From Turbatrix aceti (Eukaryota; Nematoda; Chromadorea; Rhabditida; Panagrolaimidae): 64,000 nt of DNA. Below the pieces are notes generated by a model. That model saw only the letters and a program-made list of their open reading frames with translations, did not search any database and had not been told where the DNA came from. Position 1 is the stretch's first letter. Each line of letters starts with the position of its first letter. A program made the translations under genes and the position numbers. Positions 4,497 through 57,251 of the stretch are shown in pieces. The stretch covers positions 7,964,739 through 8,028,738 of the forward strand of contig OZ017767.1 in assembly GCA_963969345.1 (NCBI GenBank). The letters run 5' to 3'.

Positions 4497-7400
4497 ATGA
4501 AGGCAGCAAACGTTCAGAAGAAGGTTTTCAAGCGGAAGCTGGATCGTATGAAGAAAAAACGAACTCAGCCGGCGACTGACGAGGCTGTTTCGCCGCCAAA
4601 GGTTAGCAAGAAAGCCAAGCAGGTTGCTGTTGAAGAACCGGAGGTGGAATCCGAAGTTGAGGAGGTGCAGGAACGGGTGGGGTCGGATGACGAGGCTGAA
4701 GTCGTTTCCGCCGATAAAAACAACGCCGAAGTCGACGCAGAAGGACGAGCTGCGTCCGGCGTGTCCAACAAAGTCCTCTCCAACACTCGCTTTGCCCAGG
4801 TGAACGGACTCGATGCCAAGCTCCTCAAGGCCGTCGAGACACTCGGCTTCGATCGCATGACGCATATTCAGGAGCAGAGCATTCCTCCGCTTCTCGAGGT
4901 TGGTTATGATAAAAAAAAACGTACAAATACGATCAATTTCCAACTTTTTTTTTAGGGCAGCGATGTGGTCGCTCTCGCGCAGACAGGCAGTGGCAAGACG
5001 CTCGGTTTTCTGCTCCCGGCCATCCAGTTGATCTGGAAGCTGAACTGGAAACCCTACCACGGCACGGCGTGTATCGTGATCTCGCCGACGAGAGAACTCA
5101 GCATGCAGACGTACTCCGTCCTCACGCAACTCCTCGAGCATTTTCCGTCCATCAGCCACGGCCTCATCATGGGCAGCGCCAACCGGGATCACGAGCAGAA
5201 AAGACTCGTCAAGGGCGTCAATTTCCTCGTCGCCACGCCTGGTCGTTTGTTGGATCACTTTGAGGTTGGTTTTTGGCTTACAAGGAAAGTGTCAGGGTTC
5301 ATTTTGGAATTTCTTCACGAAACTTTGCCAAAAGTTTGATTTTACTATGAGAAGTTTATACTGAAAAATTCAGTTGCACCGCTCATGATCTGACAGAGTT
5401 ACGGTAGTCGAAAATCACGTTTTTGCCATTTTTGACGATTTTTGTCACGTTGTAGCTAACAAACAACGGCATTTCTAGAATCAGGGTGTGCATCAATCGA
5501 CGTAGTTTTGCATGGAGAATCAGATAAAAATATAAAAATATAGGTTTGCCACCTTAAAAAATGCCGAAATTTGCATTTGAAAAGAGGTCACAATGGCAAC
5601 ATTGGTTTCGGCATTTTTCAAGGTAACAACCCTACATTATTTCTCCATAAAAAAATACGTCGATTGATACACCACTTGGTTCAGAAAATGCCGTAGTTTT
5701 TTAGCTAGAACGTGCCAAAAATCGTCAAAAATGGCAAAAACGTGATTTTCGACTACCGTAACTCTGTCAGATCATGAGCGGTGCAACTGAATTTTTCAGT
5801 ATAAACTTCTCATAGTAAAATCAAACTTTTGGCAAAGTTTCGTGAAGAAATTCCAAAATGAACCCTGACACTTTCCTTGTTAGAGACTGAAAAATTGACA
5901 AAAAAAAACGCACATTTTATGAAAAATCTACAAAAATGCACAAAAAATAATTTTTTTTTGACCTGAAAACAAAAAACTTGGATTTTTGGCCTAAAGAAGT
6001 CTATAAATGCGATTTTTATAAAAAAATGCGAACGAAAACTTTTTTGTCCAAAAGTGGCCTAAAAACAAAATTTTTTAGCCTAAATGCAAAAAAGTGTGGA
6101 TTTTTGGCCAAAAAAAGTCTAGAAATGCGATTTTTATAAAAAAAATGCGAACGAAAACTTTTATTCAAAAGTAGCCTAAAAACAGAAATTTTTAGCCTAA
6201 TAGCAAAGAATGTGGGTTCTTGGCCTAAAAGTGCGATTTTTATTTCAATAAGTGCTAAAAAAACGTTTTTTTCCAAAGTTGATTTAAAAACGCAATTTCT
6301 CGCATTTCCTGTTTTTTTAGAACACAGAAGGCTTCGTCTACAAAAACCTCGTCGCCCTGATTATCGACGAAGCAGATCGGATCTTGGATATCGGATTTGA
6401 GCGCGAAATGAAGCGAATTATGAATTTCCTGCCCAAAAACAGGCAAACCATGCTGTTTTCTGCGACTTTCGACCCAAAAGTTGAGGAGCTCATCAAAATG
6501 TCCACCAACAAAAGCGTCGAGAAAATCGACCTCTCCGAAAAAGTGGCCACTGTCGCTGGGCTTTCCCAGGGCTACGTTGTCTGCGATTCGGACAAACGTT
6601 TTCTGCTGCTATTCACTTTTCTGCGCAAAAACCGGAGCAAGAAGGTCATGGTGTTCTTCTCGTCGTGTGCTTCGGTCAAATACCACCACGAGCTGCTCAA
6701 TTTCATCGATTTGCCCGTTGAGTGCATTCACGTATGTTTTTGGAGGGGTTTTGAGAATTTTTTGGGTAAAGGAAAAATTTTTTTTTTCTTAGGGCAAACA
6801 AAAGCAAAGCAAGCGATCGTCGACATTCTTCAACTTTTGCAACGCGACCGACGGAATTCTGCTCTGCACCGACGTCGCAGCTCGTGGCCTGGATATTCCG
6901 AAGGTCGACTGGATCGTCCAGTACGATCCTCCGGATGATCCGAGGGAGTACATCCACCGGGTCGGGCGTACGGCACGTGGCGCGGATGGCACGGGAAATG
7001 CCCTCATCTTTCTGCGACCTGATGAACTCGCTTTTCTGCGGTATTTGAAGAGCGCGAAGGTCACCCTGGATGAGTTCGAGTTCGCGAACAAGAAACTCGC
7101 GAATATTCAGCCCCAGCTCGAAAATCTCGTCAAGGAGAACTACTACCTGGCTATTTCTGCTCGCGAGGCTTACAAGTGGGTTTTTTGATTTTTTTTATTT
7201 CAAGAATTTTTTTTTTCGAATAATCAATTTTTTAAAAATAAAAAAATATTTGTTTTTCAATTTTTTTACTTTTTTTAATTGTTACTTATTTTTTCTTATA
7301 TTTGTACCGTTTTATAGTTTTTTTTCGATTTTAAAAAATTTTTACCTTTTCAAAATTTTGTTTATGTTTGCGTCGTTTTTTCTATTTTAAATTTTTTTTT

Positions 7401-7741
7401 CCATTTTTACTACCATTTTTTTCTATTTTTATTACCTTTTTTAATTTTGTTTTATGTTTGCACGCACCATTTTTTCTGTTAATTTTTTTTTCATTTTTTA
7501 CCATTATATTTTTTTATTGGCGAATATTGTGTTTTCTAGGGGCTACATCAGAGCCTACGACTCGCATTCCCTGAAGACGGTCTTCGACATCCACACCCTG
7601 GACCTGACCAAAGTTGCCAAGTCCTTCGGCTTCGACGTCCCCCCATTCGTCGACCTTCCCGTCGCGAACAAAATCAAGGCTCGGGGTCCCGTCTCGGTCG
7701 GCAACTATGGATTCAAGAAGGCCAAGGTCACCAAATTTTGA
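4497..7741 (+). CDS. DDX18: DEAD-box RNA helicase DDX18/Has1 homologue
   Basis: ATP-dependent RNA helicase of the DDX18/Has1 group, which acts in the nucleolus in large ribosomal subunit assembly. Five exons (4497-4898, 4956-5264, 6321-6731, 6793-7175, 7540-7741) join in phase to give 568 residues, comparable with yeast Has1. The first ~90 residues are charged and Lys/Glu-rich. The full helicase core follows in order: AQTGSGKT (motif I), [18 protein letters not shown] (motif II), SAT (III), [20 protein letters not shown] (V) and HRVGRTARG (VI). The C-terminal region with AKSFGF and the KAKVTKF tail is typical of this subfamily. Donors of exons 1 and 2 are GTTGGT. The second intron holds a foldback element; the stop lies 148 bp from the convergent lipase stop. 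Exon 3 is the source of the inverted fragments in the lipase intron. Confidence 0.95.
5281..5879. mobile_element. Foldback element, family 1 copy B (TSD TTA)
   Basis: 599-bp near-complete inverted repeat inside DDX18 intron 2, beginning CAAGGAAAGTG and ending CACTTTCCTTG, flanked on both sides by TTA (5278-5280 and 5880-5882). The arms are almost perfectly complementary over roughly 190 bases each (for example TCATGATCTGACAGAGTTAC against its reverse near 5760). The centre shares the block TTTCGGCATTTTTCAAGGTA with copy A. The high arm identity suggests this copy is young. Confidence 0.85.
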
Positions 7742-7889: not shown

Positions 7890-10334
7890 TTAAGGTTTGT
7901 TTTTCTTTAGGCGCTCGAGTTTTTGAATTGTCCGAATTATGGGTTGGTAGATTTTTCCGGCCGCGTGCATGCCCCAGATGTAATCCATGTGATTGTAGTC
8001 GGGGACATGCGTCGTTGCCCGAAGAATTCCTGGCTGGAGAGCGCTGATGAGTTTTTGGACGTCGACCGAATCGGCCAGCCAGTCGTCATCCGAGTAGTAC
8101 AGGTAAGTGGGAACGGTCACGGATGTCAGGTTGTAGGACGGGGGCGTCGTAGAGTTGTACTTTTTGGGGTTGTCCGAGCCGTAATCGTATTTACGGAATG
8201 CCCCCGAAGCCGCGAGTTGAGACCAGTGAGCGACGTTTTTGCTGGATGTTCCGGCTGGTGTGTGCGCCAGGTAGACTGGGATGTGGGTCTGAAGGAGGCG
8301 AATATGGTAAATTTTAAATGGATACGATTTTTTATTGCTTGTAGGTGTTTTTTATAATTTTTGGAATTATTAGGGTCAAAAAAATATTTTGGGTTGGATG
8401 ACGAATTTTTTTGGTTTCTGATCGTCGATAGAGCAAATCGGATCTTGGATATCGGATTTGAGCGCGAAATGAAGCGAATTATGAATTTCCTGCCCAAAAA
8501 CAGGCAAACCATGCTGTTTTCGGCGACTTTCGATCCCAAAGTTAAGGAACTCATCAAAATGTCCACCAACAAAAGCGTCGAGAAAATCGACCTCTCCGAA
8601 AAAGTGGCAACTGTCGAGGGGCTTTTGTCCGAATCGCAGACGACGTAGCCCTGGGAAAGCCCAGCGACAGTGGCCACTTTTTTGGAGAAATCGATGTTTT
8701 CGACGCTTTGTTGGTGGACATTTTGATGAGCTCCTCAACTTTTGGGTCGAAAGTCGCCGAAAACAGCATGGTTTGCCTGTTTTTGGGCAGGAAATTCATG
8801 ATTCGCTTCATTTCGCGTACAAATCCGATATCCAAGATGCGATCTGCTTCGTCGATGATCAAAAACAATAAATCCGGGATTAGATCTAAATTAGCCAGGT
8901 GATCTGATCCAAACCAATTTTTGAATCTCGCCCCTAAATAGAATCCAAAAATCAGAAAAAAAACCAATTCAAAATTTCCCCGTTTTGCACATGTAAAAAT
9001 CCCTTACTGCGTTCAAATTATGCGTGTTAGGACCGGCAATTAGGAACAAAATGTCCTCGCACAGCGGATTAGCGATTTGGGTACCACAAATCACAGTTGC
9101 GAATAATTTGGTGAAAAAATCGTTCGGCATGAAATCGTGCGATCCAAACGCCTTGATGAACAGCGACGTAAAATTCCCAAACTTTCGGCCGAGGTATCCG
9201 AAGAGGCCTTTGATCTTGGAAACCGTGGATACCGGCGCGAGTCCGAAAAAGGCCGCCACCTGGCCGGACGCTGCTTGGGGTTGTGTCGCAGCATGGGCAA
9301 AGAAAAGGGTCGTGCCCTGCGAATGGCCGACGTAGTACAGCTGCGAGGCCTTGGAAACGTTCAGCGCGGTGCCAATCAGACAGGGAAGGTCGTGAGCTGC
9401 CATTTCGTCGATTGAAAAGTTCCAGAAGGCTTCCGAGGAGGGAGAAAGTGTCGCGTGGGTTTGTGTGTAGACATTGCCTCGAACGTTGCCGAGCCAGACG
9501 TCAAAACCGGCGTCCGCGAAGAAGTAAGCTGCGGATTGCCAGGGGAAGTTGGTTGCCCAGTCCGCGGAAGAGCCGAGAAGGCCGTGTTGCAGGAATACGA
9601 CCGGGCGGGGGGCTTTGGTTGGTCCTGACTTACCTGGAACGGTCAAATTATATAAGTATTTTTTCCGTTCGATAAAATTTTTCACAATTTTTTCCCCGTC
9701 GATTAATTGGCAACAATCATTTCATAATGAAATTTTACAGAAATGAAAAAAAGTCAGCCGGAGGCATGATTACGATTTTCGGCAAAAAAGGCCAAAAATC
9801 GCTTTTTTGCCATTTTTGACAATTTTTGGCTCAAAACAACGATTTTTCTAAAGTCAGTGTACAAATTTTGATTTAGAATTCGTGAAAAATATAAAAATAT
9901 AGGGTTATTACTTAGAAAAATGTCGAAAAAATGTTGTCATTGTGAATTTTTTTTTAAATGCGATTTTCGGCATTTTTTTAAGGTGATAACCCTGCATTTT
10001 AAAATTTTCTCGATTTTCTCCGTCAAAAATCACGTCGATCAAAATGTACTCTGACTTTGGAAATGCCGTAGTTTTTTTAGCCACAGCGAGCCAAGAATTG
10101 TCAAAAATGGCAAAAAAGCGCATTTTCCAAAAATCTTTCCCATTAGAACCCACCATAAGGAATCCGATGAAGCGTAAGAATATACCCATCACTGGTCTGA
10201 GGATGAAAAACATCCATCGGGTACCCAAAGTATTCTGCGAGCTGTGGCACTGTCATATCAGCCTCCGGGATGTAATATCCGTCTGCTGACTTGCTAACAA
10301 CAAGCAGGAACGCACAACAGGTCACGAGGAACAT
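7890..10334 (-). CDS. Acid lipase (lysosomal/gastric lipase family, alpha/beta hydrolase)
   Basis: Secreted or lysosomal lipase/steryl esterase that would cleave triglyceride or cholesteryl esters. Three exons on the minus strand, 10334-10154, 9633-9008 and 8288-7890, give 401 residues, the normal length for the family. Residues 1-19 are a signal peptide (MFLVTCCAFLLVV...). The N-terminal lipase segment with DGYILTLHRIPYGK precedes VVFLQHGLLGSS. The nucleophile elbow is GHSQGT; the acid is likely in YYSDDDWLAD and the catalytic His in YNHMDYIWG. HIPVYLAHTPAGTS is another family signature. Joins GG(T) at exon 1/2 and phase 0 at exon 2/3 restore the family sequence exactly. Intron 1 (9634-10153) carries a degraded foldback; intron 2 (8289-9007) carries inverted DDX18 fragments. 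It converges with DDX18. Confidence 0.93.
8418..8860. repeat. Inverted pair of DDX18 exon-3 fragments (long hairpin) in lipase intron 2
   Basis: Two partial copies of DDX18 exon 3 lie head to head. The left arm, 8418 to about 8623, reads in the DDX18 sense and matches 6357 to about 6562; the right arm, about 8624-8860, is the reverse complement of about 6594-6358. The arms pair with each other by about nine bases in ten over some 200 bp around a loop of a few tens of bases. From 8437 to 8521 the left arm is identical to DDX18 6376-6460 (85 bases). Both arms carry the same G at a site where DDX18 has T (6461), so they share one ancestral copy. The left arm changes DEAD to a non-functional DRAN. 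They are pseudogenic; transcription with the lipase intron would produce a long hairpin RNA. Confidence 0.9.
9760..10140. mobile_element. Degraded foldback element, family 1 copy C
   Basis: In lipase intron 1, an imperfect inverted repeat shares internal blocks with copies A and B (ATATAAAAATATAGGGTTA, TTTTTGCCATTTTTGACAAT, and a central TTTCGGCATTTTTTTAAGGTGATAACCCT). The diagnostic CAAGGAAA ends are not recognisable, so boundaries are approximate and the copy looks old or truncated. Confidence 0.6.
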
Positions 10335-49412: not shown

Positions 49413-52228
49413 ATGCCGTCGTCTGCCGTCGAATCCGTCAAAGCCGCAGTTGCACCGGTCCTCGAGACGGTCAACAAGGTGATCGCTGACGTTGGACCTG
49501 TCAAGCTTGCCGCTGGACTCCTCGCTGCGTCTGTGCCGACGTACTACACGTTCCGGTACATCCGTGAGCTCTTCACGCTCAGCGACCTCCCGAACCGTGC
49601 TGTCTTCATCACGGGCTGCGACACCGGCTTCGGCTACTTCCTCGCTCTCAAGTGCGCCAAGAACGGTCTTCCCGTCTTCGCTGGTGTTCTCACCGATGAG
49701 GTTGGTTGAGGGGAAATGGAAAAAAATGGTCAAAAACTGCGAAAAAACAGATAGAGAATGAGAAAAAAACTGTTGTGATAAATATTAGGAAGATTGAAAA
49801 AAATGTATGAAAACGGGAAGAAAACAAAAAACAGGTTAGAAAATGAACAGAAGTATTATACATTGGTTGGCTCTACGACAGTTCCGCGAACTTGACATTT
49901 GCGCGGACTTGCCATTTCCGCGAAAGACAATTCCGCGGGCTTGCCATTTGCGCGGAAGTCAATTCCGCGAAGGACAATTCCGCGGAGGACAATTCCGCGG
50001 AGGACAATTCAGCGGACTTGCCAATTACGCGAATCTTGAGACCAAGACGAGTCAGGTGAGGCGCGTGCGCACTGAGATATCTCAAAGCGAAATCTAGCAT
50101 TTTCGTTGCAGGAGAATGCATTTTCATTCATGTTTTCCATTTTTGATAATAGTTTTCGTTGTAGGAGCATCAGAATTTGAATTTTTGACTTTTTTTCACC
50201 GTTTGCATCCCTTTTCAGTCGTCTTTTCTTATTTTTCGTTCTTTTAAAATCGTTTTTTTCGCTTTTTTGTTGCTTTTTTCGGTGTTTAATGATCAATGGC
50301 CATCAGAGACGGGCTACAGGCGGGAGGAGGACAGGAGAGAGAGTCAAGGAGCGAGTCAGGGAGCGAGTCCTTTATTGGGTCTTGGATCATGCTTATATAC
50401 ACATCGGTATGCTAATTAGATAGATAGGTAAGACAGGTGTGGGCAGTAAGGGAAGAGGACGTGAGGACGTCAAATAGGAAGGTGAAAACACGAGAAGAAA
50501 CCTGCTTTGTGTTTTTAGGCAAATGATAGCAGTAATCAGTTAGAAACAAAAAAATGCTTAATCTGTGGTTTCATTTTCATTTCCGTACAATGGACTTCCG
50601 GGTGGGCGTCCATGGTATGGTACGACGAGAAAACAACTTTTTGGGGCAATCTGAGAAGACCGACATAAAACTCCGAAGCAAAAACGAATGAAAATGAAGA
50701 GAAAGGCAAAAAAAAATTTAAAACTTTAAACGGTCGACTCCCAAAGCGAAAAAAACGATTTTAAAAGAACGAAAAATAAGAAAAGACGACTGAAAAGGAA
50801 TGCAAACGGTGAAAAAAGTCAAAAATTCAAATTCTGATGCTCCTACAACGAAAACTATTATCAAAAATGGAAAAAATGAATGAAAATGCATTCTCCTGCA
50901 ACGAAAATGCTAGATTTCGCTTTGAGACATCTCAGTGCGCACGCGCCTCACCTGAGTCTCTTGGTCTCAAGATTCGCGTAATTGGCAAGTCCGCTGAATT
51001 GTCCTCCGCGGAATTGTCCTCCGCGGAATTGTCCTTCGCGGAATTGGCCAGTCCGCGCAAATGGCAAGCCCGCGGAATTGTCGTTCGCGGAAGTGACTCA
51101 CCACGACATTGGCTCCGTTGCTTTGTAAATTCTCGACACGAAAATTGTACATTGATACGTTTTTGTTATTTTCGTTGCAAGATTTCTTGTTGAGTTTATT
51201 ACTTTATTACGGTGCTTTTGGAAGTTACTTGTTACGTTTGACTGAGTATTGGTTACGTTTGGTATAATCTTGGCACGAAAGTTTTACGGTTGTATCTTTT
51301 GGTTATTTTCGTTAGAAGATTTGTTTCTTGGCTTATTATTTTTACTTTTTTACGGTACTTTTTAATGTTACGTTCGTTTTCCTTTTCAGGGCGCGACCAA
51401 CTTGGAAAACGCGAGCCGTGGACTGAAGGGCGTTCTTCGCACCATCAAGGTCGATGTCCGCTCTGATGAATCGGTCAACGCTGCCGCCAAGTACGTCGAG
51501 GACAACCTCCAGCCTGGACAAAGTTGGTTTTTTGGTGTTTTTTTGAAAAAAAGGTGTAATTTTCCATTTTTTCAGAACTTTGGGCCATCGTGAACAACGC
51601 TGGCATCGCCATCTTCGAAGGCCCAGATGAGTGGACTTCCCTGGCGACTTACCAGCTCGTCATCGACATCAACACCGTTGGCATCGTCCGCGGCGTCCAC
51701 GCTTTCCTCCCCCTTCTCAAGGAATCCAAGGGTCGCATCGTCAACATGACCTCTGTCCTCGGCCGTTTCGGCATCCAGGGTCTGTCGACCTACGTTGCGA
51801 GCAAGTTTGCCGCTGAGGGCTATACCGATGTCATTCGCCGCGAACTCCGTCACTTCGGAATCACCTGCCACATCCTTGAGCCCGGATTCTTCAAGACCGC
51901 TGTCATCCCGACCGACAAGCTCAAGGCTCAGGTCGAAAAGGCCTGGGAGAGACTTCCCGCCAACGTCAAGGGCCAGTACGGCGATGATTACTACCGTAAG
52001 TACGTCGAGTACTACATCGGCGCCAGCAACAATGCCTCGCTCAACGTTGACTGGGTCGTCAACCAGTACTACCACAGCATCACCGGCGCATATCCCCGCA
52101 ACCGCTACCAGCCTGGCTACGACGCTCTCTTCAAGCTGATTCCGTACACCTTCCTCCCGACGTGGCTTCAGGACTTTGCCTACCGTCAACTTCTCCCCGA
52201 CCACGTTCCCGCTGTTGCTCGTCGCTGA
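49413..52228 (+). CDS. Short-chain dehydrogenase/reductase (dhs/RDH-like), copy 2
   Basis: Exons 49413-49700, 51390-51522 and 51576-52228 give 357 residues with the same structure and motifs as copy 1: ITGCDTGFG, NNAG, NMTSVLG and YVASK. The putative membrane segment is VKLAAGLLAASVPTYYTFRY. It lacks the presequence-like extension of copy 1. The C-terminal 200 residues are nearly identical between copies, including KTAVIPTDKLKAQV and YIGASNNASLN. Both first donors are GTTGGT. Intron 1 is 1.69 kb because of a foldback insertion; the remaining intron DNA (51120-51389) resembles intron 1 of copy 1. Substrate is unknown; family members act on retinoids, steroids or lipids. Confidence 0.94.
49878..51096. 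mobile_element. Foldback element with CCGCGGAATT subterminal repeats in SDR2 intron 1
   Basis: Left arm about 49878-50262 and right arm about 50744-51096 are near-perfect reverse complements. The outer part of each arm is an array of short units such as ACAATTCCGCGGAGG and TTGCCATTTGCGCGGA; the inner parts share ATGCATTTTCATTCATG and TGATGCTCCTACAACGAAAA. The central 480 bases are unique and GC-richer (AGGAGCGAGTCAGGGAGCGAG, CTTATATACACATCGG), with no clear open frame. Structure is that of a foldback transposon; target duplication not found. Confidence 0.8.
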
Positions 52229-52492: not shown

Positions 52493-53090
52493 GTGTTAGT
52501 TTACATTTCGGATTTTTTTTGTGAAATTTTGCTAAAAAAGTTGTTTTCACTATGGAAAGTTTTTACGGTAAAATTCACCTGCCTGAGCATCTACTGGCAG
52601 AGTTACAATTGCCGAAAATCGTATTTTTATCATTTTGACAATTTTTGGCATGTTGTACCTAAAAATTTACGGTATTTCGAAAGCCAGGTTATATTTTGAT
52701 GGACACGTGATTTTTGATGGATTATCCGAAGAAAATATAAAAATATAGTGTTATCACTTTGAAAAATGCTGAAAATTGCAAAAAAATTCACAATGGCAAC
52801 ATTTTTTTAGCGTTTTTCAAAGTGATAACCCTACATTTTTATAATTTTTTCGGATTCTCCATCAAGAATTAGGATGTTGATTAAAACATAACCGGACTTT
52901 GAAAATGCCGTAATTTTTTAGGTACAGCATGTCAAAAATTGTCAAAAATGCAAAAACGCGATTTTCGACAAGCGAAACTCTGCCAGATTGCTTCAGGCAA
53001 GTGAATTTTACGGTAAAAAATTTTCATAGTAAAACCCACCTTTTGGCGAAATTTCATAAAAAATTTTCTAAATGTTGTTTGACACAGTTT
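52493..53090. mobile_element. Foldback element, family 1 copy D
   Basis: Imperfect inverted repeat sharing the family 1 blocks TTTTTACGGTAAAATTCACC, ATTTTTGGCATGTTGTACCT and a central TTTTTCAAAGTGATAACCCT. Termini are degraded and no target duplication is visible. It lies between SDR copy 2 and the heat-shock gene. Confidence 0.7.
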
Positions 53091-56275: not shown

Positions 56276-57251
56276 CGCACGATGGGAATTTCTCCCTCAT
56301 TTTTGCGACCACGCGTGCGTCCGTGTTGACGCGTGCTTTTTCCCACTATTTTCTCTAGCCTATTTTTTTGCTCGTTTTTTGCGAAGTGTGTTCTGTTTGC
56401 GCAGGAATCTCGAAGCCAGGAATCAAGATTTTGATTTCGCGTTTCTTCTGCTTTATTGTGCTTGGATGGTAGGCCATTTCTGTCCGCCGTAGGAATTTTT
56501 CCGATTTATGCGCGTTGCGCTAGAGCGCTGCCAAAAAGCGTTATTTTCGAACTTTATCGGATCGCCATTCGGCCGGTTTTCAATCGATTGGTCCAAAAAT
56601 TTTTTTGGGCATTACTATTAGTCCCCTTAACCTCTGTGCAAAGTCGCCTCCCGCTGTCTATGCGAGTTTTCGTCAGACGAATTTGCGAGGTTTTGATCGC
56701 TCAACGGCTCCCCAGATGACAGAACATCGGTTCTAAGCAAGCTATATGTCACCTTAGGGCTCCAGGATTGCTGACATGCATTTGGAATATTTTTTTTAAC
56801 AGCCGGATCACAAATGGAAGGTAATGGCCTCGCTTTAGCCCAACAAACCATAAATGGTGGTATCACAAGAACGCGCATAGACATCGGCAAGCGACTTTGC
56901 ACAGAGGTTAAGGGGACTAATAGTAATGCCAAAAAAAATTTTTAGACAAATCCACCGAAAACTGGCTAATTGGCGATCCGCCAAAGTCCATAATTAACGC
57001 TTTTTAGCAGCGCTCTAGCGCAACGCGCATAAATCGGAAAAATTCCTATGGCAGACAGAAATGGCCTACCATCCAAGCACAATAAAGCAGAGGAAACGCG
57101 AAATCAAAATCTTGATTCCTGGCTTCGAGATTCCTGCGCAAACAGAACACACTTCGCAAAAAACGAGCAAAAAAGTAGGCTAGAGAAAATGGCGGGAAAA
57201 ATGCGTACGCACGCGTGGTCGCAAAAATGCACCGAAAATTCCCATCGTGCA
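56276..57251. mobile_element. Large inverted repeat (foldback element)
   Basis: Left arm about 56276-56690 and right arm about 56870-57251 are near-perfect reverse complements: GCACGATGGGAATTT at the left edge mirrors AAATTCCCATCGTGC at the right edge, and GGTTAAGGGGACTAATAGTA mirrors TACTATTAGTCCCCTTAACC. About 180 unique bases lie in the middle. Short open frames on both strands are mirror images of each other and are not genes. It abuts the minisatellite at 57251. Confidence 0.85.

Follow-up and report, generated by a model that had tools for sequence, protein, structure and literature searches.

The window, i.e. the whole stretch of 64,000 nucleotides analysed here, carries on its plus strand a DDX18/HAS1-type DEAD-box helicase gene (4497-7741), assigned by an open spliced frame, by Pfam and by homologues. 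Its five exons (4497-4898, 4956-5264, 6321-6731, 6793-7175 and 7540-7741, stop codon at 7739-7741) encode a predicted product of 568 amino acids in which the Pfam domains DEAD, Helicase_C and CTE_SPB4 were matched. Homologues numbered 6978 at E <= 1e-100. Some of the 120 that were listed are named DDX18, and among these 120 no protein was more than 67% identical. In a tree of 27 proteins the helicase grouped with those of Panagrellus, Halicephalobus and Panagrolaimus and with one JGI row (support 100/99); its branch was long, 0.9 changes per column. This grouping marks the source as a nematode, probably from the panagrolaimid side. A search of the 59.9-Mb genome (28 contigs) returned no second DDX18 gene copy. 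Within exon 3, positions 6357-6596 on the plus strand aligned to both arms of the hairpin described below. This donor stretch encodes the region of the DEAD and SAT motifs.

Convergent to DDX18, an alpha/beta-hydrolase lipase gene with a predicted product of 401 amino acids lies on the minus strand at 7890-10334 (exons 10334-10154, 9633-9008 and 8288-7890), supported by an open spliced frame and by Pfam matches to Abhydro_lipase and Abhydrolase_1. The protein given to Pfam came from an earlier splice choice; it was without the last four residues, and a few others were different around intron 1. Judged by eye, the lipase appears to have a signal peptide. Intron 2 of this gene (8289-9007, minus strand, 719 nt) runs from GT to AG and leaves the spliced frame open.

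Inside intron 2, a single stretch of DDX18 exon 3 is present twice, in head-to-head orientation. An earlier note on this DNA had claimed this arrangement, and it was confirmed over 208 and 239 aligned columns with a loop of 30 nt. Arm A (8418-8625, plus strand) is an ungapped copy of 6357-6564 with 194 of 208 positions identical (93.3%). Being sense on the plus strand, it is antisense to DDX18 in the lipase transcript. The perfect match of 85 bases previously described in this arm (8437-8521 with 6376-6460) is exact. Arm B (8624-8861, minus strand) is a reversed copy of 6358-6596, 94.6% identical over 239 columns with one 1-nt deletion, and is sense to DDX18 within the lipase transcript. Where the arms meet, the two T at 8624-8625 can be assigned to either arm. 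The loop (8626-8655) separates the innermost paired segments, 8572-8625 and 8656-8709, and its sequence is the extra part of the longer arm B. The fragment starts 677 nt beyond the DDX18 stop codon, close to the 700 bp given before. The span previously assigned, 8418-8860, is close to that of the DDX18-derived part, 8418-8861; the full arm pair is slightly wider, 8408-8872, as it includes about 11 nt of arm-to-arm similarity outside that part (shuffle P 0.0045). Here DDX18's own flank is unmatched. These outer 11 nt are T-rich, as are both flanks on that strand, and contain no known end sequence. They are a weak hint that the intron received one copy first and that the second was perhaps generated in place.

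When the intron was folded, as the earlier note had proposed, the predicted energy of the whole intron was -388.4 kcal/mol in the lipase orientation and -393.9 kcal/mol in the opposite one. For the hairpin stretch (8380-8900) the prediction was -351.2 kcal/mol, whereas shuffled sequences averaged -142.4 (sd 6.1, z -34) and 0 of 100 attained the energy of the hairpin. By this folding model a chance hairpin is excluded. Two features of hpRNAs, the hairpin RNAs that are processed to siRNAs, were found: long inverted arms that can pair into an extended duplex, and extended complementarity to the target, 93% and 95% to DDX18. As judged from these features the hpRNA-like structure is real and could work like an hpRNA; its use is not evident from the sequence. 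No Rfam match above the gathering score was obtained in the window and ARAGORN (bacterial setting) reported no tRNA; a known RNA family was thus rejected for the hairpin.

The relationship of the hairpin to other foldback DNA was examined by a self-comparison of a 258-kb block, consisting of the window and 194 kb of flank on the same contig. The block was chosen around the hairpin and is a non-random sample. At four settings 9, 12, 10 and 18 foldbacks were obtained; all are lower bounds, and the first setting misses longer loops. Among the 9 foldbacks the DDX18 hairpin alone had a fully open, separate nearby copy at 85% identity or more. Foldback DNA is common in this non-random block and an exon-derived hairpin is uncommon there. 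In the genome (59.9 Mb, 28 contigs) the hairpin had four matches, every one in the hairpin itself or in DDX18, and the whole intron 2 had no match besides its own locus and DDX18 exon 3. The same search with three other foldbacks of the window listed at least 40 matches for the arm at 5277 (659 candidates, 40 scored), at least 40 for the arm at 56337 (49 candidates, 40 scored) and at least 48 for the foldback at 49875 (64 candidates, 40 scored). Like the hairpin, these three families have long inverted arms, and one of them sits in a DDX18 intron; yet each has many matches whereas the hairpin has none besides its parent. Therefore, the hairpin does not belong to the dispersed foldback families in this genome. 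By its alignments it is part of a gene that was duplicated locally in inverted form and is single-copy. The genome-wide copy search covered the DDX18 hairpin and these three foldbacks, and other gene-derived hairpins are possible in the block or elsewhere in the genome.

These data bear on two further readings. A foldback transposon or MITE with a captured piece of DDX18 would fit the frequency of foldback families in the genome and the arm-to-arm similarity reaching past the DDX18 part. However, neither the hairpin nor its intron has a further genome copy, and the outer nucleotides do not correspond to a known end sequence. As a single-copy element without dispersed relatives it was disfavoured as a transposon, and we regard this origin as very unlikely. 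Palindromic artefacts arise in long-read data, and the hairpin might in principle be an assembly artefact such as a read palindrome. A palindromic read would produce near-identical arms, whereas here the arms differ at 21 of 206 columns, each with changes of its own, and they are sited apart from the parent. An artefact is thus hardly credible.

The window and its surroundings hold several other repeats. The foldback 5277-5883 in DDX18 intron 2 belongs to a large dispersed family; its arms of 243 nt are 93% complementary, one arm has an identical copy at C2:416218, and relatives are located at about 1722-2259, 9794-10126 (lipase intron 1) and 52525-53063. The arms of foldback 49875-51084 are up to 98-100% complementary. 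Near-identical copies at C5:10243027 and C2:9016839 indicate that it was probably mobile recently. Foldback 56337-57201 has arms of 342 nt; one arm is identical at C4:9951785 and several copies are 95-96% alike, which suggests a recent spread. One of the 9 foldbacks of the block, at C2 about 8154385-8156794, looks like a gene-scale inverted duplication, a head-to-head pair of trypsin-like genes (open frames, by eye). Outside the window, a fully open stretch of 202 nt occurs twice in direct orientation, at C2 8138687-8138888 and 8140072-8140273; with 97% identity and a distance of 1.2 kb, the two copies are another local exon-size duplication, here non-inverted. Also outside the window, a tandem array of units of about 1.3 kb, about 92-96% alike, occupies C2 about 8100387-8108728.

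Next, the changes in the arms were compared. Relative to DDX18, arm A has 14 differences in 208 positions and arm B 12 substitutions and one deletion. Two changes are common to both arms, 12 are private to A and 10, plus the deletion, are private to B, so that DDX18 is departed from at 25 sites, 23 of them in a single arm. Most simply, the two arms would be of about the same age and would have drifted while selection held DDX18. Arm B is frameshifted, and the DEAD codons are gone from arm A. Neither arm, therefore, retains a coding role and a coding fragment was rejected. The 21 columns at which the arms differ comprise 8 that give G-U pairs in the plus-strand transcript, 6 that do so in the minus-strand (lipase) transcript and 7 that do neither. 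Thus, in this one genome, the differing columns carry no bias toward pairs kept in the lipase transcript, and no sign of constraint on pairing was seen in them.

The positions of the private changes were less easily accommodated. Third codon positions hold 13 of the 22 (P 0.012). When the mutability of G and C was set to 2, 3 or 5 times, P was 0.027, 0.040 and 0.058, and leaving aside an outer five-change cluster sharpened the excess to 12 of 17, a cut which was chosen after seeing the data. In the 13 nt 8423-8435 at its outer edge (parent 6363-6375) arm A carries 5 of its 12 private changes, all of them transitions. The unbroken run of 85 nt in arm A had a P of 0.007, the corresponding value for arm B was 0.60 and for both together 0.086. 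All these statistics are several tests on few changes from one genome. The third-position excess is weak; it is unexpected under free drift and unexplained. Both the excess and the run could stem from conversion by DDX18 or, if the population is diverse, from the copying of different alleles.

Might the lipase intron RNA serve as an hpRNA-like trigger? It would be cut by Dicer to siRNAs, perhaps amplified by an RNA-dependent RNA polymerase (RdRP), which measurably lower DDX18. Domains of the RNAi machinery are encoded in the genome: the RdRP domain had 16 genome matches at six loci (own grouping), the Dicer dimerisation domain 2, PAZ 16 and the ADAR deaminase domain 1. The two Dicer dimerisation loci, C6:6654810 and C4:11354926, each have a PAZ match about 1 kb away, possibly two Dicer genes. 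Of 423 22-mers in the hairpin, 102 would be perfectly antisense to DDX18 in the lipase transcript (arm A) and 69 perfectly sense (arm B). In addition, the third-position excess could mean that conversion from DDX18 kept the arms matched. On the other hand, the changes show no preference for pairing in the lipase transcript, persistent strong silencing would be unlikely to target a helicase that is conserved and has no second gene copy, and ADAR could blunt the duplex. On balance we consider a trigger doubtful, though worth keeping in mind. A stricter version, in which conversion keeps the intronic hpRNA matched to DDX18 and lipase-making cells lower their helicase, appears quite improbable.

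The closest known layout is that of hp58 in Drosophila simulans, a young inverted repeat from an exon-2 fragment, located one gene from its target. Data link it to Dcr-2, and loss of dcr-2 raises its target (PMC10317233), a precedent which speaks for a trigger. Similarly, the DDX18 hairpin is an inverted fragment of a single exon one gene from its parent. Two other D. simulans loci described there share single traits with it: hp88 arose within an existing transcription unit, and hp-ODox1 is homologous to Tapas exon 2 over about 200 bp (PMC10317233). Both hp88 and hp-ODox1 produce siRNAs and are far or apart from their targets. The DDX18 hairpin differs from hp58 in its nematode host and its intronic site, and from all three in that any siRNAs from it are hypothetical. 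For older fly hpRNAs co-evolution of hairpin and target is reported (PMC10317233). Among titles and the beginnings of abstracts we found no published nematode intronic hairpin derived from a neighbouring gene's exon, a weak negative.

In C. elegans, according to the sections of PMC4282642 used here, about 25% of expressed genes have inverted repeats in introns over 1 kb, and in tdp-1 mutants intronic inverted repeats occur in 40% of the underrepresented genes vs about 25% of those expressed. These repeats resemble the DDX18 hairpin as nematode intronic duplex RNA, predicted in our case; in those sections they are not described as copies of a neighbouring gene's exon. The tdp-1 observation (PMC4282642), together with the very stable fold of intron 2, would agree with an action of the duplex on the lipase itself, i.e. 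slower splicing, ADAR editing or less lipase mRNA. Yet the splice ends of intron 2 are outside the hairpin and usable, and foldbacks in two other introns of DDX18 and the lipase (5277-5883 and 9794-10126) argue that such introns are tolerated. An effect on the lipase is unlikely.

We conclude, with moderate confidence and from the sequence of one animal, that the hairpin is most likely a selectively neutral fold-back duplication. In a local event, lipase intron 2 would have received about 240 nt from DDX18 exon 3, about 2 kb away, as two head-to-head copies; template switching or error-prone break repair with fold-back are mechanisms that could presumably do this. Judging from position and predicted fold, the lipase pre-mRNA would then, as long as it retains the intron, carry an imperfect duplex of about 210 bp. 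This duplex probably leaves with the spliced intron and is degraded or edited, any siRNAs would be too few to matter, and both arms would drift. The neutral duplication is favoured because the hairpin matches only its own locus and DDX18 in the genome, because private changes are similar in number (12 vs 10 and a deletion) with 2 shared, because G-U pairs of the lipase transcript are not preferred (6 vs 8), because neither arm keeps a coding role, and because foldbacks are ordinary in the region (9 in 258 kb at one setting). Moreover, as a second DDX18 gene copy is absent, a strong trigger would probably be costly. It is weakened by the third-position excess (13 of 22) and by the 85-nt run of arm A, although arm B and both arms together were unremarkable. 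The earlier note had left the choice between an siRNA trigger and a young non-functional duplication. The anatomy fits both; selection for pairing was not seen, and the evidence leans to the duplication. Its suggestion that lipase expression is linked to ribosome assembly did not gain ground, position being the sole support.

The origin of hairpin siRNA loci has been called an ongoing conundrum (PMC10317233). A single-copy inverted exon fragment beside its parent, inside another gene and in an animal which bears RdRP, is a natural test of trigger vs tolerated noise. If siRNAs were found, the locus would be a nematode counterpart of hp58, and if the trigger reading were true, it would represent a newly born siRNA locus, derived from an exon and directed at a conserved housekeeping gene. 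Should siRNAs be absent, it would illustrate the way in which a duplex matching such a gene is tolerated by a genome.
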